This document shows positions 38,195 through 62,922 of a stretch of 64,000 bases of DNA, piece after piece. The position numbers and the translations under genes are program-made. How positions within the stretch are numbered: the first letter of the stretch is position 1; each line of letters begins with the position of its first letter. Location of the stretch: contig OZ020521.1 in NCBI GenBank assembly GCA_963971425.1, positions 7,209,519-7,273,518 of the forward strand, read 5' to 3'. The DNA is from Bryoerythrophyllum caledonicum (Eukaryota; Streptophyta; Bryopsida; Pottiales; Pottiaceae). Under the pieces are notes generated by a model. It saw only the letters and a program-made list of their open reading frames with translations. It was not told the origin of the DNA and searched no databases.

Positions 38195-38582
38195 TATACC
38201 AAACAATGAATATAGTGTGGATTCATTGGTGACGTGGGTGAAAAATGATGTGGACCACATCATTTTTGGTTTTGGAACACAATTGATGTGGACACATTTC
38301 AACATGTGTCATGCCATTCTTTGCCACCTCACTGCCACTCACTACCAAATATCTTCCACACCTTGTTGCCTGCCGCCACCTCACCAACCCTTGCCGCCAC
38401 CTCTCAATAATCCACATTGATTTTGTGTCAACAATTTTGAAACATCCCATACTAATTTATAAGGAACATGGTTTGATGTGGATTAATAATAGAGGTGGGC
38501 CATTGTAATTTGTGTGGACTAGAATTAGTGTAGGTATTTTTGAAATAGTCCAGTCCACACTATATGCAGTGTTTGGTGTAGC
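38195..38582 (+). mobile_element. MITE, about 388 bp, copy 1
   Basis: The ends are inverted: ACCAAACAATGAATATAGTG then TGGATT on the left, and the complement of ACCAAACACTGCATATAGTG then TGGACT on the right. The interior carries GCCGCCACCTC repeats, TTGATGTGGACACATTTCAA and AATAATCCACATTGATTTTG. A second copy of the whole unit lies inverted at 46945-47329. There is no coding capacity. Confidence 0.7.
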
Positions 38583-38756
38583 TGAGTCAAAAATTGGATG
38601 AAAACTTCAAAGTTACTCACTAGAGAGAGCTTTATAAAGAGGTTGATAAATACTTTGAAGTCTTCATCCAGTTCATAAAGCTTTCATAGAGGAAAACTTA
38701 AATCATGCCACACTCTCGTAGTTTGATGAGCTGACGCACATTTTTGAGCATGACAT

Positions 38757-40002
38757 TAGAGTTTTTCTCAAAGTCTGAGTTTTAAAGGGTGGCTACCTTG
38801 TGTCAGCCAAAAAGACCCGGTGCAACATCCTTTAAGGACCTTCTGTCTTTCTCTATTCATCAAAGCAGTGTGAGATTTAAATACGACAATATTTGCAAGG
38901 TGAAAGTTCTCACCCTCCATATTTTATGGGCCATGCGCATGGAACAAGCTAAAAATTAATAATGTGAAGTCACCAATGTCACCTTGCATCTTTGTTTGGA
39001 CGGTGACTGTGCCTAGATGATTAACCCTGTAGCATGTTGGTTGGTTGACAAAGGACCATAATTCATGGAATAAACCCCAAAGTTAACCAAACCACCATGT
39101 TTCTCAAAAACAAGTGGACTTTCAAGTGTACAACCCCTATTAGCGTTTTGGGGTGACAGTCAGTGTTTAAACCCCGAGTACTTTGAGGAAAACTCCAATG
39201 TGACATCATGATAGACTGGAGTAATCCTGAAAGTACTCGGGGTTTAAACCATAATTGTCACCCCAAAATCTGACAGGGATTTGAGTTTTCCTGAAAGTCA
39301 CCAAAATACACTGGATAAGTACCCCATATCTTAGGGTCTTATCTTAGTAACCCGGACCACATGCACATGGTGTCTTGCCCTGGGAAAGATTTGGGGGAAC
39401 TATTGGTCAACCCTGTGAGAACTTAGGGTACTATGGGAGAGCTTTAGCTTGCATGGGTAGGGCCCGAGAACATTTATTGCAAAGCATTTCATTGGTGCAG
39501 AAAAAGGTGATATGAAATTTCCTCATGCTCTTTTTCTTTCCGTTTATACATCTCATACTCTCTGGCACCATATTCCTCTTGACTTGCCCATTCGGGAAGC
39601 ACTTTCAGGAAAACTCTATTGTACGCCTGAAAGTCCACTTGTTTTTTAGAAACATGGTGGTTTGGTTAACTCTGGGGTTTATTCCATAAATTATGGTCCT
39701 TTGTCAGCCAACCAACATGCTTACAGGGTTAATCATCTAGGCACAATCACCGTCCAAACATAGATGCAAGGTGGCATTGATGACTCCGAATTACTAATTT
39801 GGTTACATTAGCCGGTTCCTTGCGCGTGGCCCATAAATATGCAGGGTGAGAATTTTCACCCTGCAAATATTGCCGTAATTAAATCTCACCCTGTTTTGGT
39901 AAATAGAGAAAGACACAAGGTCCTTAAAGGATGTTGCACTGGGTCTTTTTGGCTGACACAAGGTAGCCACCCTTTAAAACTCAGACTTTCAGGAAAACTC
40001 TA
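38757..40002. mobile_element. Long-inverted-repeat (foldback) element, 1.25 kb
   Basis: The outer ends TAGAGTTTTTCTCAAAGTCT and the inverted complement of AGACTTTCAGGAAAACTCTA open into arms of nearly 400 bp each (38757-39130 against 39620-40002). The arms share the phrases TTTAAAGGGTGGCTACCTTG, AACATCCTTTAAGGACCTT and AACCAAACCACCATGTTTCT. A second, inner inverted pair sits in the middle: GTTTAAACCCCGAGTACTTT (about 39167) and its complement (about 39229), plus TTTTGGGGTGAC and GTCACCCCAAAA. It encodes nothing I can recognise. The long arms suggest a Mutator-like or foldback non-autonomous element. Confidence 0.75.
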
Positions 40003-40216
40003 CTGTACCAACTTAGTTGCACGGCTATTTCATTAGGGATGGTTTGGAACATAACTGTAGTTAGACACACATGACAACCATATGGAGTTTCATCTTCCAT
40101 AAATGGTCCTTAAAAGTTCAAGCCACACTAGTTTCATGGTAAAATCTGCTTTGGTTCCTAAGCAAACCATTTGTTACCCTCTTCTAATTTACCTTTTTAA
40201 CCATATTATTACCACG

Positions 40217-40330
40217 ATGTTCCCATTGCATTCCCAATGAGTTCCCATGTTGTTCCCTAGAGTTCCTCACTGTGTTCCCAAATGTGTTCCCCGAGCGTTC
40301 CCCGTCGGTCCCTATGCGTTCCCAACGCGT
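40217..40330 (+). repeat. GTTCCC minisatellite
   Basis: About ten irregular units of 9-15 bp, each with TTCCC or GTTCCC followed by a variable AT/GC spacer. A related short GTTCCCGTGG array occurs at 16600-16630. Confidence 0.6.
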
Positions 40331-40558
40331 TTACACTGGGAACCAATTAAATTTAAACTTTTAAAATTTTATCCAAATTTACCTTGAGTGGGGCCAATCA
40401 CCAATCATTCGGCCCCCAACCCACACACATGTGCATGAGCTTAATGTGGGGTGTATGTCCTTGACCAGAGGGCTGATAGCCTGATACTTCACTCTGTTAC
40501 AGTCCCATGATATAGAAACATGGTAAGTGTTTCTGTTTTGAAGATGAGTCGTACTTTC

Positions 40559-40806
40559 TGTTAAGGTAGAGACTTGAGCATGACGAAGTCTAATGCACGA
40601 GGGATGTGTCTGGCTTGGTTAGGCCAGGTTTATATACTGAAGGTTACTACGTGGTGGGTGGTAACCATTGATTACATCTCTAACCACCTTGGTGAGTGGT
40701 TGGTTAATGAGTGTATCGGTGGTAGGTGAGGTAGTTAGGCTCTTAACTACTGACTAATAAATGATGAACCCTGGAGTAGCTAGAGGAATCTCGTGCTATC
40801 TCAACA
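40559..40806 (-). repeat. 3' LTR of copia-2
   Basis: 248 bp, TG...CA ends in both orientations, preceded by CTTTC. It matches the copy at 45495-45742 throughout. Confidence 0.95.
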
Positions 40807-40875
40807 CTCCTCCTCGAATGATATGCTTCCTCGTTAAAAAACTACCGTGTGCTACGGAGAAAAAGAGTGAAGTTA

Positions 40876-43800
40876 TCATTCGGCTCCTAATTCTATAAGG
40901 GTTCGCATACCAGCTATCTTGATCAGCTTGCGATGTTGGTGAGCTGGTAGAGCCTTCGTGAGCATATCAGCGATATTCTCAGCTGATGCGACCTTCCTTG
41001 CTTGGATTTGCTTTGCTGCGATGAGGTCCTGTGTGTAGCTGAACAAATGTGGGCTGATGTGCTTTACCCGATCGGCTTTGATGAAGCCTGAGGATACTTG
41101 TTCGATGCATGCCGCATTGTCTTCGAAAATTGTGATGGGCTCCTCCTTGATCGGTATTCCGCTCATCTGAGAGATGGCGTGATGCATTGTTTGTAACCAA
41201 ACCGCCTCCCGGGACGCCTCGTGAAATGCTAAAAGCTCGGCATGGTTTGTTGACGTCGCGGTGATGGTCTGCTTCGTTGATCTCCAGGAAATGGGTGCTC
41301 CATTTTTGGTGAAGATGTAGCCCGTCTGTGACTTCCCGTTCGTTGGGTCAGTCTTAAAACCGGCATCTGCGTAGCCAGTGATGCTGCTGATAGTGTTCTT
41401 GCGGTAGTGAAGTCCGAGGTCCTCCGTGCCGCGAAGATAGCGGAGAAGGTGCTTGACGCCGCGCCAATGTCGTTCCGTTGGTTTTTGGTTGTGGCGAGCT
41501 AATACGCTGACTGCAAATGCGATGTCCGGGCGTGTGTTGGTGGCGAGGTATAATAGTGCTCCCACGGCCGCCAAGTACTTACTTCTGTCAAGCTCCTCCT
41601 CGTCTTCTTCGGCAGGACGATAAGGGTCATCTTCAGTTTTGCTCTTTCCAATCATCGGAGCGGAGAGTGCGTTTGCATCGGCCATGTTGAATATACTCAA
41701 CAATTTCTTCACATACGTCTGCTGGTGGAGTAACAAACTCCCATCTGCAAAGTGCTTGATTTGGAGACCAAGACAGTATGTTGTTCGGCCTAAAACTTTC
41801 ATCTCAAACTTGTTAGTAAGCATCTTTTCTACTTGTTTACTCAATGCTAATGTCCCTATAGAGTTAAGGTCATCAACATAGACCGCTAGAATAACAAATC
41901 CTGTTGTATCTTTCAGGACAAAGACACATGGTAGTGCCGGGTGATTCGTGAACCCTTGGGATAGGAGAAAAGATTTCAGGTGATGATACCATGCGCGCCC
42001 CGCTTGCTTAAGTCCATATAGGGCTTTTTGGATTTTTAATCCGGAGAATCTCCCATGTACTGGTGGGGTTTGGTTTGTAATAAAATCAGGGGGCGGCTTA
42101 ATATGAATATCGGTATCGAGGTCACCGTACAAGTAGGCAGTGACAACATCTAGGAGTTGAGTCTCGAGTGATAATTGAACAGCTAGGCTGAGGAGATATC
42201 TAAAAGATGTGCTATCCATAACCGGTGAGTAAGTTTGTTCAAAGTCTATCCCCGGTTTCTGTGTGTAACCTTGAGCAACTAATCGAACCTTAAATCTGAG
42301 TGCATTCCCTTGTTCGTCTCTCTTGCGGGTAAAAATCAACTTGTGGCCTATGGGTTTGTCTATTAGGTCATTCACAAGCGGCCCAAATACACCGCGTTTT
42401 CTAAGCGAGTTATACTCTGCATTTATGGCTTTTTCCCAATGGGGCCAGTCAATGCTTTTCTGAGCTTGTACTAACGAGGTTGGATCTGTATCTATGGTTG
42501 CTAGGCTAGATAGAAACGTTGTGACATCATCCCATGGTGTGTGGTGATAGGTAAGGCTGGTGTGTAGCATCGTACGTGCCCTGGGGCGAGGGGTAGGGTT
42601 CAGTTTCCTTTTCTTAGCGGGCTCGGGAGGGGCAGGATTTCCCGATCCAGGAACTGGACTTCTAATGATACGAGGGCCGGAATGAAATCCATCTGGGATT
42701 TTATCCGCCAGGTTCTGAAGATTGATTAACTTCCTCACCTCGGAATCGGCTAATGCTGTACGCGGATCAGGGTTCAATGTAAGCGTCTCTATGGTTTTAA
42801 AATTTAATTTTGAGTGATCCGCCTTGGACTGTGAGCTAGGGAATTTGTTTTCTACGAATCTACAATTTTGAAATCGGGCTTTGTGTATGTCGTCACTATG
42901 CGGTAGTTTGTACCTAATGACGCTCGGGGAATCATACCCGAGGTATGTCCCTCGTTGCCGGTGGGGTGTGACTATTTTCTGCTTTGGTTCAGGTACCGGG
43001 ATCCACACCTCACATCCGAATGTCCTGAGGTGTGCTATGTGGGGGGTTCTACCTGAAGCCATCTCCAAAGGTGACTGGGTCAATAACAGGGTAGGTCTGA
43101 GACGTAATAGAACAGTTGCGTGAAGGACAGCATGTCCCCAAAAACTGGGTGCTAAGTTTGCGTGTATCAAGAGAGGTCTAACTATGAGCTGAACTTTCTT
43201 GATGTACGCTTCGGCTAATCCATTCTGGGAATGCTCATAAGGAGCCGAATAGGTCAATTCTATTCCTGACGCGACACAGAAATCCTCAAAGGCCTGGGAT
43301 TTGAATTCCATGGCATTATCCATGCGGAGGAAACATACGTGGTTATCGGGAAAGTGGTTTCTAAACCGGATAAGCATCGCTAGGGTTTTCGGGAACACCA
43401 TGTTCCGTGTCGTAAGTAGTGACACCTCAGCATGTCGTCCAGAAGCATCGACAAGAACAAAGAAATACTGAAACTGACCTGATTTGGGAGTGATTGGTCC
43501 GCATATGTCGCCGTGCAAGCGATGTAGCGGAGCTGGCATCTCGGTCGGGAGTCGCCATCTTGACGGTTGGCGTATGAGTTTGCCTTGTATGCACGCCGCG
43601 CACTCCTCGACCCGCTCAGCATCACTTGTACATAGGTCGTGACCAATGAGTGTTGGAACCATTTTCCTCATCATGGTAGTCCCAGGGTGTCCCAGCCGGC
43701 GATGCCAGAGATCTGCCTTGGCGCTCGTGGTCATGAATGACATTTGGACACCCTCCAGGGGTAGGCGTGGGGAATCTTGTCCACCACCCTCTTCCTCACC

Positions 43801-45243
43801 TTTGCAGGCGGGGCTAGGTATAGTTCCCATTAAGGGTAACTCATACAGGCCGTTGTCTCCCGCATGTGCGGTGGCGAGGAGTCTCTGCCCTCGCCTGAGC
43901 TCCAGAACCTCTTCATCATTCCCCACCGCAGTGGAGACGTGGATACGATTGGCCCTAAGGTCTCGGTAGCTGATCAGGCTCCGAGGGGCATCCGGGGCGT
44001 ACATTGCCTTTTCACAGGTGAGGGGGGCTCCCCCGGGCAAGACTATGTTTGCCCGGCCCTCGCGAAACTTAAGAGTCCGCTTGCCTGCTATTGTGACTAT
44101 GTCACATGTTTGCCACGGCTCATTTCGAGTTCCAAACTCGAAGAATGCCTGGTCTTGGAGTATCGTATGGGTGGACGCACTATCAAGCAAAGCTATTCTC
44201 GTTTTGCTTGCAGGTGACCCATAGTGGACCATATAGTTTTCAGGATCCAACCCATGAAGTGTAAGAGAGGGGGCATCAAGGGTATGTGTTTCCCTTTTTC
44301 CATCTCTTAGTGACTTCAACTCTCGATACATGTCAACTATGTACTGAGACGCTCTACACTCCTTGACAAAGTGCCCTTGACGACCGCACTTATGACATGA
44401 TCCCTTCAATACCTTGCTCGATGACTGTGACGAGCTAGACGACTTGTCAAGTCTGGGTTTGTACCTGGGGTTTCGGTTTGAATGATTCCATTCATGTTTT
44501 GGGCGCCATTCTCCCTTGCTCTTCCTCCGTGGTGCCTCCGAAGCGTGAGTTTCCCTGTTGAGATTGCCTGATTTTGGTGGCGGAGTTGGCATAGAGTTCG
44601 ACTGCTTCCCTTCCTTCATTTCGGTCGCGTGTATCTCCTTGGCGGGGCGTGCTTCGGCATTCTTCAACAACATCTGCTGCTGCTTTTCCGCGAGGAGAAG
44701 ATAAGACATAAGCTCTGAGTGTTGGGTGAACTTCATATTGCGGTACTGCTGCGCTAGAATTGCACAAGCTGGTGGGAAGGTTGAGAGCGTCTTATCTATC
44801 ATGTCAATGTCGGTGATGGTGTCGCCGCATAGCCTGAGTTGCGCCACGATTCGATGGAGTTCCGAGTTGAAGGCGAGAAAGTTCGGGAAATCGAGGACTC
44901 TGAGGCTGATCCAATCGCTGCGTGCTTGTGGCAAGAAGATGGTCTCCTCATGTTTGAAGCGTGCCTCTAATGCTGTCCACAGTTCCGCCGGGTTTTCCAC
45001 CTGGATGTACTGTTGACGTAAAGATGCATCGAGGTGTCTTCGCAGTATCAGTAAGGTTTTCCACCTGTACAGCGCTGGGATCTCATTTTCAGGCTCTGTC
45101 TCCAACGTCGCGTCCAGTTCTTCTGCGCAAAGGTACGTCCACATGTCCACGTTCCAGCCGAGGTAGTTCGACCCGTCCGGTTCAAGAGGATCGAAGAAGA
45201 GCGGCTGTATGCGGGTGTCCCGTGTGCGAGCGTGTGTCGCCAT
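40876..45243 (-). CDS. copia-2 Gag-Pol polyprotein, 1,455 residues
   Basis: One open frame with all Ty1/copia domains in order: Gag (residues about 1-270), CCHC zinc knuckle CHKCGRQGHFVKEC (about 285), and protease LLDSASTHTIL (about 355), a DSAS variant of the usual DSGA. Next come GAG-pre-integrase LWHRRLGHPG (about 515) and integrase with LHGDICGP, LRMDNAMEF and SQNGLAEAYIKK as the D, D, E regions. Reverse transcriptase includes RLVAQGYTQKPGIDFEQTYS and VYVDDLNSIG, and RNase H includes GYADAGFKTDPTNGKSQTGY and FEDNAACIEQV. There is no stop or frameshift. The start ATG lies 252 bp inside the 5' LTR, and the stop lies 69 bp before the 3' LTR. Gag and Pol are translated as one frame, as is usual in plant copia elements. 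Confidence 0.96.
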   Translation of the reverse strand: MATHARTRDTRIQPLFFDPLEPDGSNYLGWNVDMWTYLCAEELDATLETEPENEIPALYRWKTLLILRRHLDASLRQQYIQVENPAELWTALEARFKHEETIFLPQARSDWISLRVLDFPNFLAFNSELHRIVAQLRLCGDTITDIDMIDKTLSTFPPACAILAQQYRNMKFTQHSELMSYLLLAEKQQQMLLKNAEARPAKEIHATEMKEGKQSNSMPTPPPKSGNLNRETHASEAPRRKSKGEWRPKHEWNHSNRNPRYKPRLDKSSSSSQSSSKVLKGSCHKCGRQGHFVKECRASQYIVDMYRELKSLRDGKRETHTLDAPSLTLHGLDPENYMVHYGSPASKTRIALLDSASTHTILQDQAFFEFGTRNEPWQTCDIVTIAGKRTLKFREGRANIVLPGGAPLTCEKAMYAPDAPRSLISYRDLRANRIHVSTAVGNDEEVLELRRGQRLLATAHAGDNGLYELPLMGTIPSPACKGEEEGGGQDSPRLPLEGVQMSFMTTSAKADLWHRRLGHPGTTMMRKMVPTLIGHDLCTSDAERVEECAACIQGKLIRQPSRWRLPTEMPAPLHRLHGDICGPITPKSGQFQYFFVLVDASGRHAEVSLLTTRNMVFPKTLAMLIRFRNHFPDNHVCFLRMDNAMEFKSQAFEDFCVASGIELTYSAPYEHSQNGLAEAYIKKVQLIVRPLLIHANLAPSFWGHAVLHATVLLRLRPTLLLTQSPLEMASGRTPHIAHLRTFGCEVWIPVPEPKQKIVTPHRQRGTYLGYDSPSVIRYKLPHSDDIHKARFQNCRFVENKFPSSQSKADHSKLNFKTIETLTLNPDPRTALADSEVRKLINLQNLADKIPDGFHSGPRIIRSPVPGSGNPAPPEPAKKRKLNPTPRPRARTMLHTSLTYHHTPWDDVTTFLSSLATIDTDPTSLVQAQKSIDWPHWEKAINAEYNSLRKRGVFGPLVNDLIDKPIGHKLIFTRKRDEQGNALRFKVRLVAQGYTQKPGIDFEQTYSPVMDSTSFRYLLSLAVQLSLETQLLDVVTAYLYGDLDTDIHIKPPPDFITNQTPPVHGRFSGLKIQKALYGLKQAGRAWYHHLKSFLLSQGFTNHPALPCVFVLKDTTGFVILAVYVDDLNSIGTLALSKQVEKMLTNKFEMKVLGRTTYCLGLQIKHFADGSLLLHQQTYVKKLLSIFNMADANALSAPMIGKSKTEDDPYRPAEEDEEELDRSKYLAAVGALLYLATNTRPDIAFAVSVLARHNQKPTERHWRGVKHLLRYLRGTEDLGLHYRKNTISSITGYADAGFKTDPTNGKSQTGYIFTKNGAPISWRSTKQTITATSTNHAELLAFHEASREAVWLQTMHHAISQMSGIPIKEEPITIFEDNAACIEQVSSGFIKADRVKHISPHLFSYTQDLIAAKQIQARKVASAENIADMLTKALPAHQHRKLIKIAGMRTLIELGAE

Positions 45244-45481
45244 GACTGTGATCTCTATCTTTTATAATTCTAGTTGGTTGCCCTGATTTGTATCCGACAC
45301 CCTTCCCCTAATACCCGTAAGCGCAAATCTGACCTCTACCCGAAGGTGTGTATATGTGAGTCAAAACTGTGCAAGGTCTGAGCTATGGATGAGAAAGATT
45401 GTGGACACACAAAAAAAATCAGAGTAAAAGAAAAAAAATGAATTAACAATGAAAGAAAAAAATCAGGGTATCGAGCAAAAA

Positions 45482-45494
45482 CGTGCTGATAACG
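45482..45494 (-). other. copia-2 primer-binding region
   Basis: In element orientation CGTTATCAGCACG follows the 5' LTR directly. A TTATCAGCACG-type site at this position is common in plant copia elements. I did not assign the tRNA. Confidence 0.6.
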
Positions 45495-45742
45495 TGTTAA
45501 GGTAGAGACTTGAGCATGACGAAGTCTAATGCACGAGGGATGTGTCTGGCTTGGTTAGGCCAGGTTTATATACTGAAGGTTACTACGTGGTGGGTGGTAA
45601 CCATTGATTACATCTCTAACCACCTTGGTGAGTGGTTGGTTAATGAGTGTATCGGTGGTAGGTGAGGTAGTTAGGCTCTTAACTACTGACTAATAAATGA
45701 TGAACCCTGGAGTAGCTAGAGGAATCTCGTGCTATCTCAACA
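45495..45742 (-). repeat. 5' LTR of copia-2
   Basis: 248 bp, the same sequence as the copy at 40559-40806, followed on the plus strand by the CTTTC target duplication. Confidence 0.95.
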
Positions 45743-45936
45743 CTTTCTAGGTGATAAGTGAATATTGTGTCAATGCAATTTATTTTTTTACATTAAGGCA
45801 CCACCGAACTTTATTTTAGACTCCATGAGAAGAAGTGGCAATTGAGTTTGGATACACTACATTAAAAATTCTGATTAGAATTGTATAGCAATAAGTGTCA
45901 CAAGACGTGACACTATTCATCTGCATTATCGAGGGT

Positions 45937-46022
45937 ATCAATATATGTCACATAAGAATAACTCATTGAACCAAGCAATATCAATATATGTCACATAAGA
46001 ATAACTCATTGAACCAAGCAAT
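45937..46022. repeat. Exact tandem duplication, 2 x 43 bp
   Basis: A 43-bp unit beginning ATCAATATATGTCACATAAG is present twice head to tail without a mismatch. It lies in AT-rich intergenic DNA with scattered TTTAGTGTTG-like MITE arms (45850-46680). Confidence 0.85.
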
Positions 46023-46345
46023 ACATTATTGTCACCAAATTAGTGTTGGTAATGTAAGTACCTTAGTTGATAATTACAATTGAGTAAGACAATTAAAATT
46101 TGTGATACTATTTATCATTTTTAGTGTAATAGAAAGATGGTTTGAAACTACCATTAAGTATACCAACTTTACTAATAATGATGTTTAGTTCCCAACACTA
46201 ATTATGAAACACAACTCTAAATGTAAACTACGCATTTAGTGTTGTGAAAGTTAATGCCAAGTGCAACAATACTTGTCAAGTGCAGTAAATGATGTAATAC
46301 AAAAAAAATCTTATTGACATTTAGTGTAGGGTAATGATTGTATAC

Positions 46346-46349
<4 letters not shown>

Positions 46350-46395
<46 letters not shown>
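46350..46395. repeat. (AT)n microsatellite
   Basis: About 22 uninterrupted AT units. Confidence 0.95.
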
Positions 46396-46399
<4 letters not shown>

Positions 46400-46944
46400 T
46401 CATATATAGTATATATTGAGGGCATATTAATGCATATCATGTATTATACAACATAAATTGCGTTCATTTGGTATATGCCATAGTATGTATACAATTAATA
46501 CCCTACAAGGAAGTAAATGCCAACAAGTAATGTTTTATATTGCTTCACTTGTTACAGTTGATAAATACCGTTGTACTTGGCATTTACTTCCACAACACTA
46601 TATGTGTAGTTTATATGTGCGGTTCATAATTAGTGTTGGGAACACTAAACATCATTTTCCGTGTCATGGAGTGATAGAAATATTTGTATAGTGTTTTTTG
46701 TCATTTTAAGCCCTGCTTGTGATTGGTGCACGACGGTCATTGTAGAAAATTCAGTGTAACAGATTTGTTGTCACCCATGCATACAAAGAGATTGGTTTTG
46801 ATCAAACTCAAAGGGCATTCGAAAATGTACGGTTAGATCCTGGGTGTCACATTGGACCTCCATGCAGCACTGGTTGGTAGTTGGTGGTTTGTACTTGGGA
46901 ATGTCAAACAAGCAATTTGGGTCAAAAATAAGCTCTCCATGTAG

Positions 46945-47329
46945 TACACCAAACACTGCATATCCTGCGGACTAGACCATTTCAAAGTACCTACACAAAT
47001 TCCAGTACACGCAAATGACAGTGGTCCACCTCAATTCTCAATCCACATCAAATCATGCTCCTCATAAAATAATGTAGGATTTTTCAAAATTGTTGAAACA
47101 AAATTAATGTGGATTATTGAGAGGTGGCGGTGACCAATGGTGAGGCGGCGGCAAGCGATGAGGAGTGGAAGATATTTTGGTAGTGAGAGGCGGTGTGGTG
47201 GCAAAGAATGGCATGATACATGCTGAAATGTGCCCACATCAATTGTGTTCCAAAACCAAAATTGATGTGGTGCACATCAATTTCACCAACATTACCAATG
47301 AATCCATACTACATTCAATGTTTGGTGTA
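46945..47329 (-). mobile_element. MITE, about 385 bp, copy 2 (inverted relative to 38.2 kb)
   Basis: It starts TACACCAAACACTGCATATC and ends TTCAATGTTTGGTGTA. The interior matches the copy at 38195-38582 in reverse complement, including AATCCACATCAAATCATG, GGATTATTGAGAGGTGGCGG and ACATCAATTGTGTTCCAAAA. It is non-coding. Confidence 0.7.
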
Positions 47330-50127: not shown

Positions 50128-50159
50128 AACACGTAATTAAGCAATTATGCACTTAGCCA
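50128..50159 (+). repeat. Left terminal inverted repeat of the 12.8-kb element
   Basis: It begins AACACGTAATTAAGC and ends GCACTTAGCCA. The right end has C for T at position 7 and G for A at position 28. It is followed by AAGTGCAC, so the sub-end GCACTT..AAGTGC is itself palindromic. Confidence 0.75.
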
Positions 50160-50727
50160 AGTGCACTGGTTGCTGGTAGAAAGCCGCAAGTTATTTGCTC
50201 ATAACTTTTTTTTAAATAAAAATTTGGCGAAAGTTTACTATGTTTTTTGTCAAATTTTTTTGGTGTTTGTCGTGTCATACCTTGGCATCTTCATGTTCAT
50301 ATCAGTAATATATTTTTTACATTTGCTACCTTTTTTTAGAAAATATATGATTTCAAATCTATTTTACAAATCCTGCTACAAAATTATAATCATATGTCCA
50401 AAGAGATTATAAATTTGTTATGAGTTATTATAGGATTTTAGAGTAGTGCACTACAAATACAATGTGTAAGAGATACAAAAATATATATGCAATTTCCTAA
50501 GACAGTGTAAAGTACCTCACTGTATTTTATAATGCAAAAACAAATATAATCAAGCAATTCCACACTATTGCTGAGGAATTCTAAAATCAAACTTATGACA
50601 TATGGACCACCCAATATATAAATATATACCACCCACCGAACGATAGACACATCTTAAACTGCATTATACTAACGTACTTGCCACCTAAACTGCGTGCATG
50701 CTCTACTATAGTATATAGCTCCAGGGC

Positions 50728-53700
50728 TCAGAGCTCATCTTCTGGCGGAACGACTCCCTCCATGTATCCAATGGCGCTACCTACCATAGCGGACAGTTCA
50801 TGATCCTGCACTGGACGATCTCCCACATCTTCGATGCCAATGGACGCACACTCAACATATCGGTAATTGCTAGGAACACCCTCCCGCATATGCCTTACGC
50901 TATCTTCATTGTAGAAAAAGCCATCCTCTGGATTGAAGGACATCTCTTGCTCTGATGAGAAGGCCCTCTGAAATGCAATGATGTCCTCGGATACGCTAGA
51001 TCTTGGAACGGAAGGCAAACCTGGTCCGGTATCACTTTGAGTACCTCCAAACGTCTCTTGTGTCTCCGATATTGGCTCTGATTGAAAAGACATGGAAGGC
51101 TGTCGAATCCTCCTCGGCACCGAAAAAATTCCAATGAGTTCAAATTCTTCTTCCTCCATCTCCAGCCTAAGACCATCAAATGTACGCCCTCCTCCTGTCC
51201 CTGCCGCCAATCTAACATCTACTACACCGGTATCTTGCATCCTCTCTGTAGGTGTTGCAGACGTCTCCCCAGAAGTACCTCCCACCGTCCGCTGCGTTGA
51301 TGGAATCCTCTCTCTTGGAGGAGACTGGTTCACTCCATCTTCATCGGAATCGGAACCACTGCGAGATGAGAAATCTTCAGTGGTACCTGAACGTGGCAAT
51401 CTCTCATGTAAACCACCTCCATCCTCATTGTCGTCTTCATTCCTCACTGCACCAACCGCCTCTTCGGTCCCATGTACGATGTTGCAACAAATACTTCTTC
51501 CACCAGTCCTGACCAACAGTTGTCCTTGGAAATTGTCAGACAACTCATTGTACAAAAATGAAACTCTGTCTGTACAATTGTCAATGATGAAAACCTTAGA
51601 TCCCTCAAAATCTCCTTCAAGGATCGTGGAAATGGCCGTAGATATGTTACACGCCACTAAATCCAACCACGGGGCAAGTATGAGCCCACTAGTCTTGCCA
51701 GCTCTGATGGAGATCTCTCAAGTGAATCAACTTCAGAGGGTTGGCGTGCCTCATTCCAGTGATCTAAGAAAACAAGACGAAGTGGAACGTCTCCAAAAAC
51801 ATACTTCAGGCCAGGAGATGTACCCACAGGGTGCTGCATACAAATCACAACATCGCCAATCGGTTGTACTACTTGCTCCAAACGCCCATTCTCTATAAAA
51901 TCGAGAGCATAGGGATTAACCGAGTTCGGATCAAATGCCCAACATCCACGTTGCATAGTACATCCTTCTGGAAGCTACACTTTCGTGAAAAATTCTTCGT
52001 TGGCATACATGGCCGCTGGTAATAAGAAGATGACGTTCCATCGTTCAATATTTGCCATCCATAATGTAAGCTGTGCAAAAGCTGCGGATAACTGGGCGTC
52101 TCTTCAATGACCATCTCCATGCCTACCACCGCCACGTCGACAATCAATCACCCACAAACATGGTTTCCCCAACTCTATGTAGTCGGTGCGGAATAATCCT
52201 CTTCTACACCGAAGCGGAAGAAGATTCTTTGTGCCGTTCTCGCCTGGCCTCTTGAATTCCATCTGCCATTCCCAATTAGCAGTAGCCAATCCTTCCACAT
52301 CCACGGATAGTCCAATGTATCCACGCTCCCCTGCTGCAATGTCACCATAATGAAACCTGATGGAAGGGGGGATGAGGTAGCCTATGTCTTCTTGTTTAGA
52401 GACCTTCCCCCGCATAGGAGCAATCCAAGCTTTTTTTGTAATAGCATTCAAAAGCTTTCCAAAGGTATCAAGTTATGCGTTACTCCTTGGAAAATACTTC
52501 CCTATACGGATACAAAAGAAGTCCTTCATGGAATTAGGTGTACTTTCATTGTTCTCCACCATCAACCAACGGATGGAATTCATCACAACTTCTCGTCTCT
52601 GATATCGGTTAACCACACCGGCAATCGTACGAGGATGTGGATTCTTGTCTTTTACACCGTCGAAGTAGTATGCTTGACGAGGTCTTACTCCATCTTCCGT
52701 CACCGACTTCGCTACAACAGACTTTGTGAACTGAAGATAATATGGAGTCGGAACCCTACTTAACGGCCTCAACCAATTCTGAGTCATCTCCTTTCTTGAT
52801 TGTACGTCCACATTTAGATCCAGCTCTTTCTTCCTCGCCTTGTCCTTCCACTTGTCCTCTTCCTCCTTGCTATAAAAGAGAATGTCGTCTTTGTAGTCCT
52901 TGCATACTTGAATGATAGCTTCGAAGCAGTCATTGCTCGGATTCCATGCATGATTGGTCAGATCCTCCATGTTTTTGGTCAACCTCTTCACTATGACAAC
53001 TCCATCCCCCTTGGGCAACTTATGCACTGCATTTGCCGCACTCACCAAAGCAACAGCTATGCGTGCATCGTCCGCATGTAGTGTGCTATCAGGCCTCCCG
53101 TATAGATCCAAAATCTGACGGATCTTCCTCAAATCCTCCTCCATGGTAAATTATGAATGTTTCTGGAACTCCGCCACGTTGATCCGCGCAGACTTCTCAA
53201 TGTAAAAGCGACGATCATCATACACCACAAAAGACGCCTCCCGCCGCTCGAACGTGTCTAGGTACTCATTTAATGGCATAGTACCATCTCACCACTGCTG
53301 CTGTGCTAACTTATAAGCTGCTATTATGTGTTGCCCATCTACCGGTTCCCAAATGATATGATCTTGAGGCCAAGAATACTGAGATCCCATGGCACCCTCT
53401 GCAGAAGCACTCCCGTGTACAATGAACATGCGGTCAAACTCTCGTGCGGTTCCTACCAACGAAAATGGAAACTCCTCCTTCTCAACGACACCATCATTGG
53501 TGGTAGTATGCACGATGTATCTGATCGGTCGAAGTACCAATCTATTCACCCGAGTTGCGGATTCTAGGTCTCTTAAGCGGTTAAATACTTCTCTGACCCT
53601 CTTATGTGATAAAACCAAGTGCTTCGTTTCCAGATTCTCCACAGAGACAATGCGGTCTATACGTGCCTTAAACACAAAATTCTCCGACACTGATCCTTTC

Positions 53701-54689
53701 GCAATCTCCTCTGTTGTAGGCACTGGTGCTTTTAAATTCATTGAAGTTGGAACATCCTGTGGTATCTCCGCATTGTCTTCAAAATCCTCTGGAACACTGT
53801 CTAGAAGGTTGTGAAAATCTTCTTCCTCCGGCGCCATGGCTAATAAATCAGCTAAATCTCCCGGTGTAGATGTAGGGGCCCTACGATGACCATCAGACGT
53901 CCTGAGCTCTGACTTAGGAACTCTGCCATCGGATCTTACACTTCTCCCAAACAACCTCCTCGCGCTTGGATCCAAACTTGATGGGCCTTCTCTTGAACCA
54001 GAAGCTACATCACTGTCAACACGCCGTGGCCTCTTTGTAAGACGTCTACTCGTTAATGGAGGATTCGGTAATGTTTGTACCTCAGAAACTGTGGTGGAAT
54101 GTTGGCCTCCATTTCCCCTCCCCCCCTCTAGTGCTCGCCAATCCAATTGCAACGGCTCAGCAAGAATTCGATAAACTTCTGTTTCTTCCGGTTCCGCTGG
54201 TGGGGCTTGAGTTGTCGCACGTGATGGGTCCCTCTTCCGAAATGCCTCATATCTAATATGTTCCTCCATAATCTTCTTAGCCTTCAGCACCATCTTCGGT
54301 GATAACGCTAAACAGGCTAAGACGTTATTGTGTCTAGCAGTACGTACCGCAAGAGAGATGTTCATCCAAAATGTTTGCAATGATTTGAGGAATTTCATTT
54401 GACCTGGATTTTGAAGAAGATTCAAAGAGACAGGTGCAAGAAGCAACTTTTTCGAAAGAGAAGTCTTCACCTCCGATTGACCTGGACCCACTGCGCAAGT
54501 AACGTATACCATATCATCACGTCGAAGAGTGATTGCCTGAATTTTGCCAAAACTCTTCCCCAACGCCGATGTACGCTTCCCCAGCTCAAATGGATAATCC
54601 GTCATCCACAAGAAGGCGTTCGACTCATCCACTTCCGCGATCCACCAGCCGTGGCTCTCCCAGATTCTGTCAATATTTGGTGGTGCCAT
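50728..54689 (-). pseudogene. Large unrecognised coding sequence, decayed (left gene)
   Basis: From ATG 54689 (MAPPNIDRIWESHGWWIAEV) one frame runs to about 52150 with only three stops (TGA near 53291, TAA near 53156, TAA near 52475). The codons around each stop continue the same protein. Frame changes near 52145, 51955 and 51660 then link VDVAVVGMEMVIEETPSYPQ, GCWAFDPNSVNPYALDFIEN and CNISTAISTILEGDFEGSKV to an acidic, Ser/Gly-rich tail ending GYMEGVVPPEDEL. The full product would be about 1,350 residues. The middle has a basic, low-complexity part (SRRLTKRPRRVDSD). I see no helicase, nuclease, zinc-finger or membrane motif. An upstream in-frame ATG at 54773 exists, but the sequence between the two ATGs looks non-coding. 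Possibly an accessory protein of the element (inference). Introns at some breaks are an alternative to frameshifts. Confidence 0.6.
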
Positions 54690-54767
54690 AATGCAACACT
54701 CAAAAAACTTGTATATCATTACAAAACGATAGTCACTATTAGTATGAATAAGAATTTTTGAACCACC

Positions 54768-55530
54768 ACTCATTGCACAATTTTTTTGAACATCCTACAC
54801 CCCTTGTCTACCTCTAAAAACTTTTGTACTACAGAAGATCTAAATCCAATACCATTGTGTTAAGCATGTTGTTAGTTCTTTGGTGAAATAGCATATTAAT
54901 CCAAGTCAATTATTTTCACATATTGTCACACATTTTCGGCCAAGGTACCAAAAAAACTTCTACCTTTCCACATAAATATTTGAGATCTTCGTATGATTCA
55001 CTTTTGATTTTTCCTATGGCATTATGTGATGTAAACCTTCTAATTGACCATTTGGATTCTCATTTAAAACAATATCAAGTTCACAAAAAAATATAACGTG
55101 AATTGAGAATTATTGAACCTCCACTCATTGCACAATTTTTTTGAATATGCTACACTCCTTGTCTACCTCTCAAAAAATTTGCACTACACAAGATCTAAAT
55201 CCAATACCATCGTGTTAAGCATTTTGTTCGTCTTTGGTGAAATAGCACATTAATCCAAGTCAATTATTTTCACATATTGTCACACATTTTCGGCCAAGGT
55301 ACCAAAAAACTTATACCTTTCCACATAAATCTTTGAGATCTTTGTTCGATTCACTTTTGATTTTTCCTACGGCAATATGTGATGTAAACCTTCTTATTGA
55401 CCATTTGGATTCTCATTTAAAACAATATCGAGTTCACAAAAAAATATAACGTGAATTGAGAATTATTGAACCTCCACTCATTGCACATTTTTTTTGAATA
55501 TGCTACACCCCTTGTCTACCTCTAAAAATT
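54768..55530. repeat. Tandem duplication, units of 356 and 352 bp plus a partial third
   Basis: Units start ACTCATTGCACAATTTTTTT at 54768, 55124 and 55476. Units 1 and 2 are about 90 percent alike over their full length (shared ATCTAAATCCAATACCAT, TTTTCGGCCAAGGTACC, ATTGACCATTTGGATTCTCA). The third keeps only about 55 bp. The array starts at the 5' end of the left gene and may be its promoter or leader region. Confidence 0.85.
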
Positions 55531-55800
55531 AGTATGTAGCAAACTAACATCATGCTGAATATTATGGTAATTTTTTGAGACCCTTTGAAATGCCAATATT
55601 GGACACCAATTGAGGTCAAAGTCTGCTGATCCATAAAACGCAGGGATGAAAATGAGCCTTTTCTCTACTTCAAACATTAAAATCTTTCAATCCGTGCGGA
55701 AAACTTTATGAAATTTTGTGAGTATATTACTTAATAAGTCATTATTGAGATCCTACGGTTAAAACTATCAAAAAAACTTAATTTTTTTTCCTTGCAATTG
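54870..55800. repeat. Diverged direct repeat, copy A
   Basis: It shares a long stretch with 58310-58860 in the same orientation. Shared phrases in order: ATTTTCACA(C/T)ATTGTCAC, GGCCAAGGTAC / GGGCAAGGTAC, ATTGACCATTTGGATT, CTACCTCTAAAAATT, CTAACATCATGCT, GTCAAAGTCTGCTGATCCA and CTTCAAACA. Copy A additionally contains the 352-bp tandem duplication. Confidence 0.7.
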
Positions 55801-56039
55801 CACTAAAACAAGTATTTATAAAGATTTTTGGTTTAGATATTCTTTACATCATTTTTGGACCAAGGAACTTCGAGTATCAATATCGAGGGTATACTACTAG
55901 GGTATGACTAACTGGGCACCTTAACCGGTTATCAACCATGGTGTCTATTTCGGGTATCAATTTAGGGTTTCGAATTAGGGTTTCGAATTCAGGGTATCAA
56001 TCCGGATATCAATGTGTTGCACCTTTGGATAGTCTTACG

Positions 56040-56770
56040 AGAGGTGTGCGCACGCACACCCCCAGTAGTAGTTGTGAGGGAGGCTGTGAGTGTGAGAGAG
56101 TGGGTTTGGAGGAGGGAGAGGCTTGTGAAAGGCTTGTGGGATTGTGAGAGATGGGCTTGTGAGGGCGGAGGGTGGGGAGAGAAGAGTTGTGAGGGAGAGG
56201 AATGAATGGGAGGTGTGACGAAGAGAAAATGTGGGCGGCTAGGGTTTGGTACACACAAGGAGGATAGGGCGCGGGAGGAGAGAGGAGAGATGGAGATGAG
56301 AGGAGAGATGGAGGTGATAGTACGGGAGGGGAGGGAATTTAAAAAATAAAAATAAAAAACGTGCCTGGGGCAGGCCCCTAAGGCAAGCCCTGAGGCAAGC
56401 CGCGCCCTCGAGGCCGGCCGCGGGCCTGCGCCAGGCCGTGCCTGCGCCTGCGCAATACTTGGGCGCATAATTTGGGCTTCGCATCGCGCGCCTTCACTAG
56501 CACAATGCGCCAGGCCATCGCGCGCGCTTGTGGCCTGCGCCATCACACTTGCATCTCCTTGCTCTCCGTTTACTAGGCTGTGCAAAGTTTGAAGTTGCGC
56601 GCGCAAGGTTCTTCGTCAATGTTGCGCAACCAGCAGCACCTTGCGCGAGGCCGTTCAACGTTCAAAAAGCACCTTCACAGAGTTTGGGTTTTTAGACCTC
56701 GACTATTTTTGGATATGGTTGGTGGAGGAGCACCTGCAGTTGGAGGTGTGTGCGCGCACACCTCCAATCT
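56040..56770. promoter_or_regulatory. GC- and purine-rich island bounded by palindromes
   Basis: The left boundary is GGTGTGCG-CA-CGCACACC (56043-56060). The right boundary is TTGGAGGTGTG with an 11-bp inverted arm around TGCGCG (56740-56767). In between, 56070-56330 is strongly purine-rich on the plus strand (AGAGAG, GGGAGG), and 56360-56560 is GC-rich with GCCTGCGCC and GCGCGC clusters. It lies between the two divergent genes, so a shared promoter is plausible but not shown. It could also be a separate insertion. Confidence 0.4.
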
Positions 56771-56790
56771 ACGCGAACTCCATGGCAACG

Positions 56791-56890
56791 GCGGCTAGGA
56801 TTTGGTTGCTGCAGCTAGGGTTTTGTTGTGGCAGCTAGGGTTTGGTTGCGGCGGCTAGGATTTGGTTGCGGCGGCTAGGATTCAGGTAGT
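56791..56890 (+). repeat. 20-bp tandem repeat, about 4.5 units
   Basis: Units of exactly 20 bp with the consensus GCGGCTAGGATTTGGTTGCG. Variation is mostly G/A at positions 3 and 10. Confidence 0.9.
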
Positions 56891-56899
56891 GCGCTCATG

Positions 56900-58300
56900 T
56901 GCTATACTCAGGATTTAGTGCCATTCTACGAGCTACTCACTTCAGTTTTGTGTGGTTTTTGAGTCAGTATTTGAGTATTACAAAAACTGCACTTTCTAGT
57001 TGTTGACTGCTATCTTGTGTAAACATTAAACCTTTGTTGATTTTGCAGTTTAAATTGTACTCAAGTTCAAGTCCTCATTTGTGTGCTCCTATATTGGTAC
57101 TGCTCACTATCGTAACTCTAACTGACCTTAATCCTCATGAATCTAACCCTGGAATTCCCTCATCTTCAGAATTGAAACAAAGCCAGAAGCTTACCAAATT
57201 CGCCAAAATCTCCTTGATGTGCAAATGTCCTTCAATCTACACAGTACACACAAAGTTGATAGAAATTAGCAAATGAAGAAAAATGCACATGGCCTTCAGG
57301 TTTCGATTGCAAGAGAGTTCACCTTAGAAATTGGGAAGAGAAGAGACTTCTAGATTTGCATAGAAACCTTATATTCATGTTGGAACCTTGTGCCCCAAGT
57401 TTATTAGTCAAAGTTTGACTTTAGAACTTTTTACATTTTGCTTTGTTTCTCCTTATGTTTAAACTATTTACATATTATATTAATATTTTGAGCTATATGT
57501 AATACGAAGATGCTTAGGAGTTTTATCACATAATGTACCATATAAATTTTATGCATGTGTTGCAAGTAAAGTGGGAAGGGTTGAAAAACATGTTCAACAA
57601 TGACGAAATGGTGATTTAATGTTGAACGCCATCAAGCACCAGTGCGTGTACCACTAACACCTGTAACGTATTTTGAGGTAAACATTTATTTTAACACAAG
57701 TTTAAGATTGATTGTTGATTGATCTTCTGTACTATGTTGTTTGTAGAATAACCTTTATGTGGACGTACAAACCTTTTTTTTATTAGCGATTGTAACAAGA
57801 TCCTATGGTGTTAGTAATAGCAAGTAGACAACATGGTTCATTTTCTCCCCTAGGTTCAATGGATTCTCTTCGTTTCAGTTCACTTAGATTCAAAAGATTG
57901 CATCAGACATGATGTAGATTCATTATTATCATGTCAGAAATGATATTAGTTATATTTTATACCAATGTTTAGGGATTCAAAAGAGGTGTAGCATATTTAA
58001 CCCTAAATGATCAAGTGACAAAAATGGGCTTCTTGAAAGTTCGGTCAGGTTCCTATGGTGTCAATTTCTAACATTCCTCTTTGAAAATTTTACTATAGAA
58101 AGGCATTACCAAGACTTTAGTGGGAAAACAATTTTTTTACCTAAATTGGACATTTGATCAAAAAGTTTTAACGTTTTGAATTTCAAATGGGTAGAGCGGG
58201 CAAGTCGGGCATGTCCAAAAAGTTTTGCTAGGACACTCTGTTGAATGTGAGATTTTCAGTAATCGTAAGTAATATTATTTTCCTTCATGTTATCAAAATA
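56900..58300. other. Central non-coding part of the 12.8-kb element
   Basis: AT-rich, with only short unsupported reading frames. It could contain leader introns of the right gene. No motif is recognised. Confidence 0.35.
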
Positions 58301-58309
58301 AGTTCTCGT

Positions 58310-58860
58310 ATTTAGTGATAAATAACATATCAACCTAAGTCAAACATTTTCACACATTGTCACTCATTGTTGGGCAAGGTACTAAAAAAACTTTTTGTTT
58401 TCCAAATAAAACCTAGATATCTTTTCATTTTTGACTTTTTATTTTTTCCACAACAATATGTGGTGTAAACCTTCTTATTGACCATTTGGATTACCAATCT
58501 ATAACATATTATGTTCACAAAAAATTACAATGTGAATTAACAAATTTCAAACTTCCACTCCTTGCACAATTGTTTTGAATATGCTACACCCGTTCTCTAC
58601 CTCTAAAAATTGGTGTACAAGGAACTAACATCATGCTTAACAAGATGGTTGTGGATTTAGACCTTGTGTAGTGCAAAAATTAGACACCAAGTGAAGTCAA
58701 AGTCTGCTGATCCACTGCACGCAGGGAAGTATATGAACCATATGCTTGACTTCAAACACTATAATCATTCAATCCGAATGGTCAAAGTTTATGATTTTTT
58801 TTTTATGTATTACTTAATATGTCTTAATTGGGATCCTATGGTCAATGTTAGAAATAAAAT
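58310..58860. repeat. Diverged direct repeat, copy B
   Basis: Counterpart of 54870-55800 in the same orientation, without the tandem duplication. It lies directly upstream of the right gene, whereas copy A lies upstream of the left gene in the opposite sense. Confidence 0.7.
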
Positions 58861-59167
58861 CTTTTGTTTCCTTATTTGTTCATTGCACTGGAATTCAACA
58901 ATTTTGAAGTGTTTTTGATGTAACATTGTCATTGTACCTTTAGGGATAAAGACTCCGTGCAAGGAGTTCATGCTCTACAAATTCTTATTTTTTTCATTTC
59001 AATGGTGTTTTATCAAAAGGTCCAATATCATCATCATATTTTGAACAGTAAATATGTGTTTAGAAACATTTCTTTTATCAGATGAATGGTGCTTTGAAGG
59101 TTAACAATTAGTACATGTATTTTGACTAATGTGCAGCCATAATGTTTCTATTTTTTCAATAGTGATA

Positions 59168-62100
59168 ATGGAGAGCCACACGATTCAGACTTCTTTGATA
59201 CGGCCACACATCCAAAGGGATAATATGCATTCCAATAGCTCTGTGGAGGCTCAATTAGTACGAGCAGCACGTGCAAGGCAAATTCAACAGAGATCTGTTG
59301 GGATCATGACATCTGAATTAGATACAGCCGTAGAATTGCTCTCTGAGAGAAGAGATGTGGTGGGCTTAGCAACCAAGGAGCATGCATTTAAAAGTGGCAT
59401 GGAATTGGATGGATCAAAGTTGTTCCCATTCGAGGTGGCAGTGCATATCAGTAGGGTAGATGATGCATTGCATTGGACCGGAGAAATTGTAGGAGAACGC
59501 CTTGGCATGTGTGTGGGCTTGATCATTCGTTGGCATCGGTCTTTGCTACGTGTAATGGATGTAGAACCTGATATCACAGGTGTCCATGGTGACATTGGAT
59601 CACGGATAGCGCCTACACAAGTGATGGCCCCAAAATTTGATTTTCCTGAGTTCATCAACACACCAGGATCCACCGAGAGGTCTCGACGCAGTAGTCATGC
59701 TTCAAACGCCATAGATGAAAATTCCTTGTTTTCCCAATCTACTCTCTCAAACATTCGAGATTTGCCCCATGTAGATGGATTTGCTTATGTTCGACCAACA
59801 CGTCGTCCCTATTCTATGCAAAATAGGAGAAGGAGAGATTCAAGAGAGCCATCATTGACAGAAGCTGCATCAGCTAAGGTATCGCTTAGAAGCATGCAAA
59901 TTGCAATGGCACAAGGAGGATGCAAACGCAATCGTTTGAGGGACGTTCCAGCAAGGTATCTATTGGACAAGCGATATAATGCACGGGCTAATGAGTTTTT
60001 AGTACGAAGTACGTGGATGAGACAAATGCTAGTTTCATTTTACACAAGGACAGAAGGAACTCGTCGAGACAAGTTTATAACAAAGTTAGATGGAAAACAA
60101 GTTTACAATGCTTGCTACGCTCTTGGGGTTGGATATTCACAGAGGCGCTTTAAGCAATTGAAGAAGGACTGTCTAATATATGGAAGAGTGACATCAATTC
60201 ACGGCAATACCCTTTCAGATTCGATTAGAGAAAGCACTAGAATGTCTGCAGCAGATGCTTGCTTTAAATCGTTTGTCGATAAAGCTGGTTGTCATCAATC
60301 TCATCGTTGTATTCGCCGTAAGAGTGACAACGAAGTGGTGCCTCTCATTCTCCTTCCTATGAATACAACCAAATTTGATGTATTCAATTACGTGAACGAG
60401 GAGGTCAAGAGAACTTGTAATGAGGAAACCATTTCTATGAGTTCGTTCCAGAGGATGTGGCGCATCAAGTATCCCCACATTCAGGTACCTCCATTCTCGA
60501 GATTCTCAAAGTGTTATCATTGTTGGGAGTATAAATGTGCCATGGAAAGAACCACCAATGCGGATGCAAGATTAAAGATAAAGGAGTTGTTTATGTTGCA
60601 TTTGCGCAACCAGATGGAAGAACGTAGGCATTATTGGATATTCAAGAGGTCGTGTTGTATTATCCCTAAGTTGCACATGTGCATTATAGCGGATGGCATG
60701 GACCATTGTACCGAGGATGCGGCAGACTGTGAAGAACATTGAACATCGGTTTGTGAAGACCCATTTGTATGGTGCTCTTGTACATGGGATTGGTTTATAT
60801 TGCGACGTGTGGTTTGGGGCTCACCACAAACACGATAGCAACTAAGTCGTGAGTACATTGTTGTACGTGATAGGAGATGTATTGCGGAGGAAGGGGTTTT
60901 TGCCACCAACATTGCGAATCCAGGCGGACAACTGCGCACGTGAGAACAAAAACATTTATATGTTTGCTCCATGTGCTACATTGGTGGGATTGGGGTTTTT
61001 TCAGGAAGTAGAACTATCTTTTCTCATAGTCGGCCATACACACGAAGATATTGATCAACGCTTCAGTTGTATATCAAATACATTGAAGAGGTCGGACGTG
61101 GATTCGTTGAAGGAAATGATGAGTCTTATAGAACAAGGAACATCCCCTACGGAGGCATTTGTTAGCGCGCGGCTGCTAGAGAATGTATGGGATTGGAAAA
61201 TGTTCATATCTCCTCACTTATTGACAGGTCAGGATTCATTGGTGGGCATAACATTTCCGCACCACATGCGATTCTATATAGACAATCGAGAAGGGACTCG
61301 TGAGGTTCGAGTACAACACAAGCATTATTGCAAGGATCCATGGGGACCGGAGGCAGGGACGTAAACTTTGAGGTCGTTGCCAAGTAGGGATGAGCGACCA
61401 TCGTTTGCGGAAGTATTTGGAACGGACGAACGGGAGTTGAAGGCCTTGGATGACTTCATTGTATATAAACAAAGGTGCATTCAAAGGTTGGAGCATGAGG
61501 ACAAGAATCGTGAGGCAAAAATAGAGGCTGAAAGATTGAAACTCTATTTAGCTGAATTTTCACACAAAGACCATAGCAATGAGCATCGTTCCTCACCGTT
61601 TTGGCCTTCAGAGTTCTCCATCATCGGACCTACAGAGAGTGCATCTTTGGATGTAATGGATGGTGCAAGTGAAGAAAATCGCGAGGTACATGTCGTAGAG
61701 CAGGTAGTGGCGATGCTTCCAAATGCCGAGGCTCGAGGATACTTTGGTCCTCGTAGAGGAAGACCCTCTAATCAAGCATTGCGTAGGGCACAACGAACAG
61801 AGCGCAACTATGTTGAGGAAAGAGCCGAAGAAGGAGCAATGTATGAAGGTAGTCACGACCCATTTCCACCATTTAATCGACAATCTGATATCTGTTGTGT
61901 ACAATTTGTAGCCTTGAGTGTTGATCGAGCAGAGATAGAAGGCGGTGTTATATTCTATGTCGGGAAAGTGATTGAGGAAGGAAAAAACCGATGAAGACTT
62001 AAGATAAAGGTTTGTTGGTATTGGCCCATCATCCAAATTGGGGTTGTTGATGGACATGGGTCTTCTGCACAGCGGTATGCAAATTGCATGGACTCATTCT

Positions 62101-62348
62101 GGGAGCCATCTGGGGAGAGCCATAGTTGGGTAGAGAAAGATGCATGCATTTTTTCATGGGTAGACACATCGGAAAGAACGATGCCAGGGGCCAGTGGGTG
62201 GAGAAAGCGCAATGTATTTGGAGTGCAGGTTGAAAGCAGGATTTGCATTCTTCAATCGGCAAAGGCTCACATACTACAATATATTGCAATGCAAACCGAA
62301 GCTATCGATGACGACCGTTTGCAAGCAGCCCTCAATTCTATGGAGTAG
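59168..62348 (+). pseudogene. DUF7869-like protein, decayed (right gene)
   Basis: From ATG 59168 (MESHTIQTSLIRPHIQRDNM) one frame runs to about 60725. A frameshift then moves to a second frame that stays coherent to 62348 across three stops (TAA about 60841, TAA 61362, TGA 61992). The N-terminal half is basic. A Cys/His cluster (CYHCWEYKC, about 60510) precedes the core. The core reads CIIADGMDH (Asp codon 60692), HRFVKTHLYGALVHG, LRIQADNCARENKN (Asp codon 60927) and VGHTHEDIDQRFSCIS (61032-61075). That order matches the DUF7869 domain found in many eukaryotic repeat-like proteins and looks like an RNase H-fold D-D-D/E arrangement. The C terminus (VALSVDRAEIEGGVIFYVGK...KVCWYWP) resembles the small barrel often seen at the end of such proteins. 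I infer a transposase-like role; it is not proven for this family. Confidence 0.75.
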
Positions 62349-62890
62349 ATAGTGCGCCTTTTTGAGAGTATACTAGTTGTGTATGGTAATTGATATATAG
62401 TGTATGTGTAAGAGTAGTATATTCTAAAGGTGATGTAAGACGTTATGTCATTAATCCTATAGAGGAAAGGTAATTTTACTATTGGTGCTAAGTCCATTTG
62501 TAGAAGAATCTGTATTTGGTTTCCACCATTGTATGCATTATGTACTACGTAGAATATCTTTTAATCAACTGCCAACCCTAGCATAATGTATGTTTTTTTG
62601 TGATTATGCCTGTTTGTATATCCTACAATCCTTCAAATCTATCTTTGAAATATTGTGAAATTATATTAAATACACATTTATCTAGTATTAACGAAGGGCC
62701 ACCAAAAATTAGTTGAAAATGCCAAAAAATCGCTTCCAATATTAACAACCATGATTGTATGTAATATTGTTGCAGAAGCTCAATTTTTTTTCCTTTGAAA
62801 AACATTTTTTTTTTTGTTTTTTTTTGCAATTTTGCTATTTTGCCACTTTTGTTCGCAATGGCCGCCGTTGTACCCAAGTGCACTTTTAAA
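62349..62890. other. 3' non-coding end of the 12.8-kb element
   Basis: AT-rich, with long A/T homopolymer tracts at 62785-62826. A comparable T-rich tract lies just inside the left end at 50205-50260. No gene is seen. Confidence 0.45.
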
Positions 62891-62922
62891 TGGCCAAGTG
62901 CATAATTGCTTAATTGCGTGTT
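62891..62922 (-). repeat. Right terminal inverted repeat of the 12.8-kb element
   Basis: The complement begins AACACGCAATTAAGC and ends GCACTTGGCCA, 30/32 identical to the left end. Just inside it, TTTAA separates it from AAGTGCAC, which follows directly in the left end. Confidence 0.75.

Follow-up and report, generated by a model that had tools for sequence, protein, structure and literature searches.

The element and its two genes

A 64,000-nucleotide stretch of the Bryoerythrophyllum caledonicum genome (the window; C9:7209519-7273518 in a 437-Mb, 894-contig assembly) contains a large element that encloses two genes between inverted repeats. The 32-base-pair (bp) arms at 50128-50159 and 62891-62922 are complementary at 30 of 32 positions (94%) by inverted-repeat comparison, with 12,731 bases between them. 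The left terminal inverted repeat (TIR; plus strand) is followed by a left-type subterminal sequence (GCCAAGTGCACT), and the right one (minus strand) has a right-type subterminal sequence (GCCATTTAAAAGTGCA). A 32-mer with two free positions and up to three mismatches matches only at the two arms within the window, and the mean in 100 shuffles was 0.00.

Two long, broken coding sequences sit between the arms in divergent orientation, as read from the open reading frames; their limits were set by alignment with an open copy of the element. The left gene (50728-54719, minus strand) encodes no known domain. The right gene (59168-62348, plus strand), identified by reading frames, Pfam and comparison with the open copy, encodes a DUF7869 protein. 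The codon of its first predicted catalytic aspartate, in the motif DGMD, lies at 60692-60694, and the matching aspartate ends strand 1 in the structural model of a relative. A piece of the DUF7869 core at 60846-61361 (plus strand; PF25273, E 2e-42) carries QADN, with the aspartate codon at 60927-60929, and HTHEDID at 61035-61055. The other two motifs share a frame that differs from that of ADGMD, and a single frame change and a single stop lie in between. The ends about 12.8 kb apart, the pair of decayed divergent genes with no third between the arms, and the DUF7869 motifs of the right gene were all described in an initial annotation of this DNA and are confirmed here.

A repeat of about 354 bp is present in two to three tandem copies immediately upstream of the left gene (54751-55603) and as a diverged copy (76-77% identity) upstream of the right gene (58311-58684). 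The number of these repeats apparently varies from copy to copy. The element in the window has no target-site duplication, being flanked by TTAG and ATGT. Because both of its genes are broken and the duplication is missing, the window copy looks dead.

Copy number, target-site duplications and empty sites

In the host genome, the TIR pattern occurs with up to three mismatches at 929 forward and 959 reverse sites (1,888 in total), compared with none for the reversed control. Pairs of plus and minus ends were picked from 100 listed sites on contigs C1 and C2. All ten long pairs retrieved, which span 12,496-13,592 bp, are flanked by a perfect 4-bp target-site duplication (CATC, TAAG, TGAT, ATAT, CCTA, CTTA, ATTG, TATG, CATT and TTTC). 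Both genes align to the window copy in each of the ten, with some gaps, and the copies are about 88-93% identical to it across long aligned segments. A second set of ten pairs (2.2-14.4 kb) includes seven with a perfect 4-bp duplication and three that match at three of four bases. Besides the window copy, perfect duplications are thus found in 17 of 20 pairs, and three of four bases match in the other three. By reading, a left-like subterminal sequence is combined with a right-like one in each pair of the second set, and some of these sequences are variants. The shorter pairs, which make up eight of this set (2.2-7.1 kb), keep both end types, as deletion derivatives would.

Unoccupied sites were recovered for two copies. 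When the flanks of the first (L035/L036) are joined through a single CTTA, they match 40 places at 92-93% identity, all across the junction (the best 40 of 3,248 candidates); each of the three junctions that were read carries CTTA once and no gap. The second (L041/L042) lies within a repeat that resembles those inside other copies; once joined, its flanks align to that repeat with no gap at the junction, for example over 429 bp at 81% identity without gaps in L043. The flanks of L043/L044 gave no site across the junction; except for the flanks of the copy itself, their matches were one-sided.

Given repeats that define the unit, a duplication of fixed length and empty sites, the element is a TIR DNA transposon (class II). 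The initial annotation had expected further copies with the same ends around both genes, and empty sites that reveal a fixed-length duplication. The former were obtained in all ten long pairs; the latter were found in the same genome, with a length of 4 bp. Ends separated from the genes, which it had named as a contrary outcome, occur at most as the shorter pairs.

The DUF7869 protein

The right protein of the open copy is a member of DUF7869 by profile (PF25273, E 7.7e-51, 172.8 bits; curated cut-off 26). Pfam gives no function for this family, which is linked here with a mobile element that has defined ends and a target-site duplication. Distant eukaryote-like relatives retain the motifs DGM, QxD and GHTHxDID. 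In the right protein, the second acid is residue 594 and the glutamate of HTHEDID is residue 633, a spacing of 39 residues. A structure prediction was also proposed in the initial annotation: a moderate-confidence model of the core of a distant relative has the fold order of RNase H, with the conserved acids at the positions of those in DDD/E transposases, and its last helix is poorly modeled. The same fold order is found in the IstA protein of IS21 and in retroviral integrases, at 7-12% identity in structural alignments. IstA is the only transposase proper among the 50 best matches listed in the fold search, a result that bears on those 50 alone.

The substitution pattern of the core is as expected for a protein under constraint, judged from lineage comparisons. 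Synonymous differences (pS 0.76-0.96) are near saturation in 25 of 28 pairs, with nonsynonymous differences (pN) of 0.11-0.30, and the ratio of nonsynonymous to synonymous substitution rates (dN/dS) in the three close pairs is 0.34-0.41.

Sequence searches added no known function. No transposase family in Pfam, NCBIfam or PHROGs matches the right protein, and no solved structure in the Protein Data Bank matches the DUF7869 core or either whole protein by sequence. PF25273 was not found in 14 control genomes. In viral contigs, no DUF7869 relative was confirmed and neither the motif pattern nor the TIR pattern was found. Several candidates were set aside: two weak matches to DUF7869 in a tail protein of phage records (E 0.09), and sub-threshold profile matches to RRM_8 on the window piece (E 0.033), to phrog_13117, of unassigned function, on the right protein (E 0.25), and to PBECR2 (E 0.19) and DUF3208 (E 0.13) on relatives. 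Three eukaryote-like contigs (L074, L075, L076), in which DUF7869 genes are apparently split by introns, are filed as metagenome-assembled genomes of Bacteroidetes and are probably misbinned.

The left gene and its pairing with DUF7869

The open copy (L033/L034) is the one among the ten fetched in which both frames are uninterrupted, encoding 1,341 residues on the left and, from stop to stop, 1,066 on the right. Left frames of 1,249-1,371 residues from stop to stop are free of stops in 29 of the best 86 of 1,276 candidates. Because the left-gene block of L034 recurs at four other places with an identical protein, the sequences suggest recent spread. DUF7869 frames of at least 1,040 residues number 70 among the best 150 of 3,611 candidates, and 66 of these frames show no flagged stop; all 150 scored matches exceed the Pfam cut-off. 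Both partners are open at, for example, C11:12218702-12226729 and C9:18433986-18441796.

The two genes are consistently associated. A DUF7869 match from the best 150 lies within 15 kb of 51 of 150 left-gene matches and, in an earlier list, of 35 of 86; these counts are lower bounds, as both lists hold the best-scored matches only. The orientation is divergent in every case. The left protein matches no transposase family and no known domain in Pfam, NCBIfam or PHROGs, and no relatives of it were found in viral contigs. A fold predicted from its single sequence (predicted local distance difference test, pLDDT, of 34) was not used. At C8:4437376-4443710, two left-gene matches lie 3.4 kb apart and point away from each other, with no DUF7869 match between them among the best 150 listed.

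A second family

Seven further DUF7869 cores in the genome share 61-74% identity with the core of the first family (59-71% in a longer alignment). For one lineage (cores at 71-74%), the right end was obtained from a two-copy comparison (AACATGGAATTCGCTAAATATGCACTTGGCCA) and is clearly akin to the window end. With up to three mismatches, this end occurs at 65 + 71 = 136 sites genome-wide and at none in the control. Of nine second-family pairs, seven have perfect 4-bp duplications, one matches at three of four bases and one has inverted flanks without a duplication. Three of the nine, on C3, C6 and C14, enclose a DUF7869 match among the best 150; they measure about 16.7-17.3 kb and are flanked by the perfect duplications AAAT, CAAT and TAAT.

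In the C14 copy (16.7 kb), three pieces totaling 3.7 kb (L095-L097) gave only chance-level matches to the left gene. Because these 3.7 kb are without a left-gene homologue, the two-gene make-up is established for the first family only. The unrecognized left protein of about 1,350 residues, which the initial annotation proposed as the partner of DUF7869, would have this role in the first family, where the genes are divergently paired. In the pair at C3:28589990-28600810, each flank is the reverse complement of the other, which suggests an inverted duplication. By reading, a remnant resembling a Tc1/mariner-type transposase lies past the end of one second-family copy (L072).

Comparison with known transposons

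Ginger1 and Ginger2 are TIR elements with 4-bp target-site duplications, a DDE transposase and TGTNR ends (PMC2836005). They resemble the present element in their TIRs and duplication length, but differ in their ends and integrase-like transposases, whereas the present element has AACACG ends (AACATG in the second family) and a second large gene. No integrase profile is listed for the right protein at E up to 10, in a search whose filters remove most weak matches. Kolobok also makes 4-bp duplications, at TTAA only, and has a C/DxxH motif (PMC9587614). The TTAA specificity of Kolobok and piggyBac is not seen here: TTAA occurs in none of the 24 perfect duplications (17 in the first family and seven in the second). 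Sola and Chapaev also make 4-bp duplications.

Other groups differ in their motifs or duplications. C/DxxH between the second and third acid marks hAT, MuDR, P, Kolobok and Dada (PMC10045372, PMC9587614), and C(2)C and H(3-4)H occupy this interval in CACTA/EnSpm-Mirage-Chapaev-Transib (PMC12730594). By reading, all of these are absent from residues 594-633 of the right protein. Zisupton makes 8-bp duplications (PMC12730594), in contrast to the 4 bp of both families. Extra genes are known in maize MuDR, plant CACTA and PIF/Harbinger elements (PMC9033089). CACTA/EnSpm, MuDR and PIF/Harbinger are like the present element in having an extra gene, but no profile of their transposases matches. These groups usually make duplications of lengths other than 4 bp. 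EnSpm and Harbinger duplicate 3 bp (PMC12730594).

No paper in the literature collection searched names DUF7869, PF25273 or HTHEDID. Likewise, a literature search, which covered neither Repbase nor preprints, gave no recognized description of a new superfamily or 4-bp plant element of this type. As the ends, duplications and motifs misfit the compared groups and DUF7869 is named in no paper found, this superfamily of a known kind is probably undescribed, with the caution that the search covered neither resource.

Proposed mechanism and alternatives

We consider it likely that this TIR DNA transposon, about 12.5-13.6 kb long, uses its two divergent genes as follows: the DUF7869 protein is its predicted DDD/E transposase, with an RNase H fold, and the left protein is the partner. 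The DUF7869 protein would bind the 32-bp ends and the subterminal GTGCACTTGG repeats, probably through its N-terminal third and a CxxC stretch. It would then cleave the element at its AACACG tips and link these to the target strands with a 4-bp stagger, whose repair would yield the 4-bp duplication. The left protein, of about 1,340 residues, is probably DNA-binding or regulatory, by analogy with other plant transposons that carry two genes. Located upstream of both genes, the 354-bp repeats probably serve in regulation or as binding sites. Three observations weigh against this interpretation: the last helix of the relative's model has low confidence, the window copy has no duplication, and one second-family pair has inverted flanks without one.

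It is rather unlikely that the element instead belongs, as a strongly diverged member, to a superfamily already described, such as Sola, Chapaev/CMC, Ginger, Kolobok or KDZ. Ginger1/2 (PMC2836005) and Kolobok (PMC9587614) share the 4-bp duplication, and KDZ, EnSpm and Sola-1 include elements of more than 10 kb (PMC12477816, in excerpt). Against such a placement, neither protein matches a transposase family in the three libraries, the duplications are neither TTAA nor CCGG, the ends are neither TGTNR nor CAC, and the C2C/H3-4H and C/DxxH motifs are missing between the second and third acids.

Still less likely is a real transposon with the roles exchanged, in which transposition would be carried out by the left protein and DUF7869 would act as an accessory nuclease or regulator of RNase H fold. 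In favor of this are the greater size of the left protein, its lack of a match in any library, its poor model and the low-confidence last helix in the model of the DUF7869 relative. However, it is DUF7869 that has conserved acids in RNase H order and that lies between homologous ends in the second family, where all three pairs enclosing a listed match have perfect duplications and 3.7 kb of one copy are without a left gene. Immobility, with segmental duplication having spread the gene pair and with ends that arose by chance, is consistent with the missing duplication and the inverted flanks just mentioned, but can practically be dismissed: 4-bp duplications of differing sequence and 1,888 ends against none in the control oppose it, and the empty sites refute immobility.

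In agreement with the initial annotation, the findings suggest that DUF7869 is the component of a transposase that would carry out cutting and joining. More broadly, and with less assurance, we favor the view that DUF7869 supplies the catalytic domain to a superfamily of DNA transposons that is undescribed in print and spread across several eukaryotic groups. In this genome the superfamily would comprise two or more families that share homologous ends and a 4-bp duplication and whose genes are numerous (3,611 candidates, of which the best 150 were scored); in the larger family, DUF7869 would act together with the second, unrecognized protein of about 1,340 residues.

Other features of the window

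The window also contains other repeats. Inverted arms of about 300 bp (83-92% identity) at 38242-47283 surround about 8.4 kb, inside which are a folded-back repeat (38753-40006) and a Copia-type element (40559-45744) with a 1,461-residue open frame and 250-bp direct repeats reported as 100% identical. A second Copia-type element (28318-33615) has repeats of 96% identity and a run of 200 Ns at 29477-29676. The Copia-type elements and their open frames are in keeping with a plant genome. On the minus strand, a single 5S ribosomal RNA match and a SNORA72-like match lie at 14106-14224 and 17944-18078, respectively. An imperfect 86-bp palindrome with a 49-bp loop is found at 12674-12894.

Implications

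A domain without assigned function is provided here with a mobile context, ends, a target-site duplication and a predicted active site, which makes its role directly testable. If the proposed role is correct, it would account for the many copies of DUF7869 genes in this genome, and annotators could mask these as transposons instead of including them in gene counts. Plants, for which a 2022 review lists six TIR superfamilies (PMC9033089), would also gain one more.
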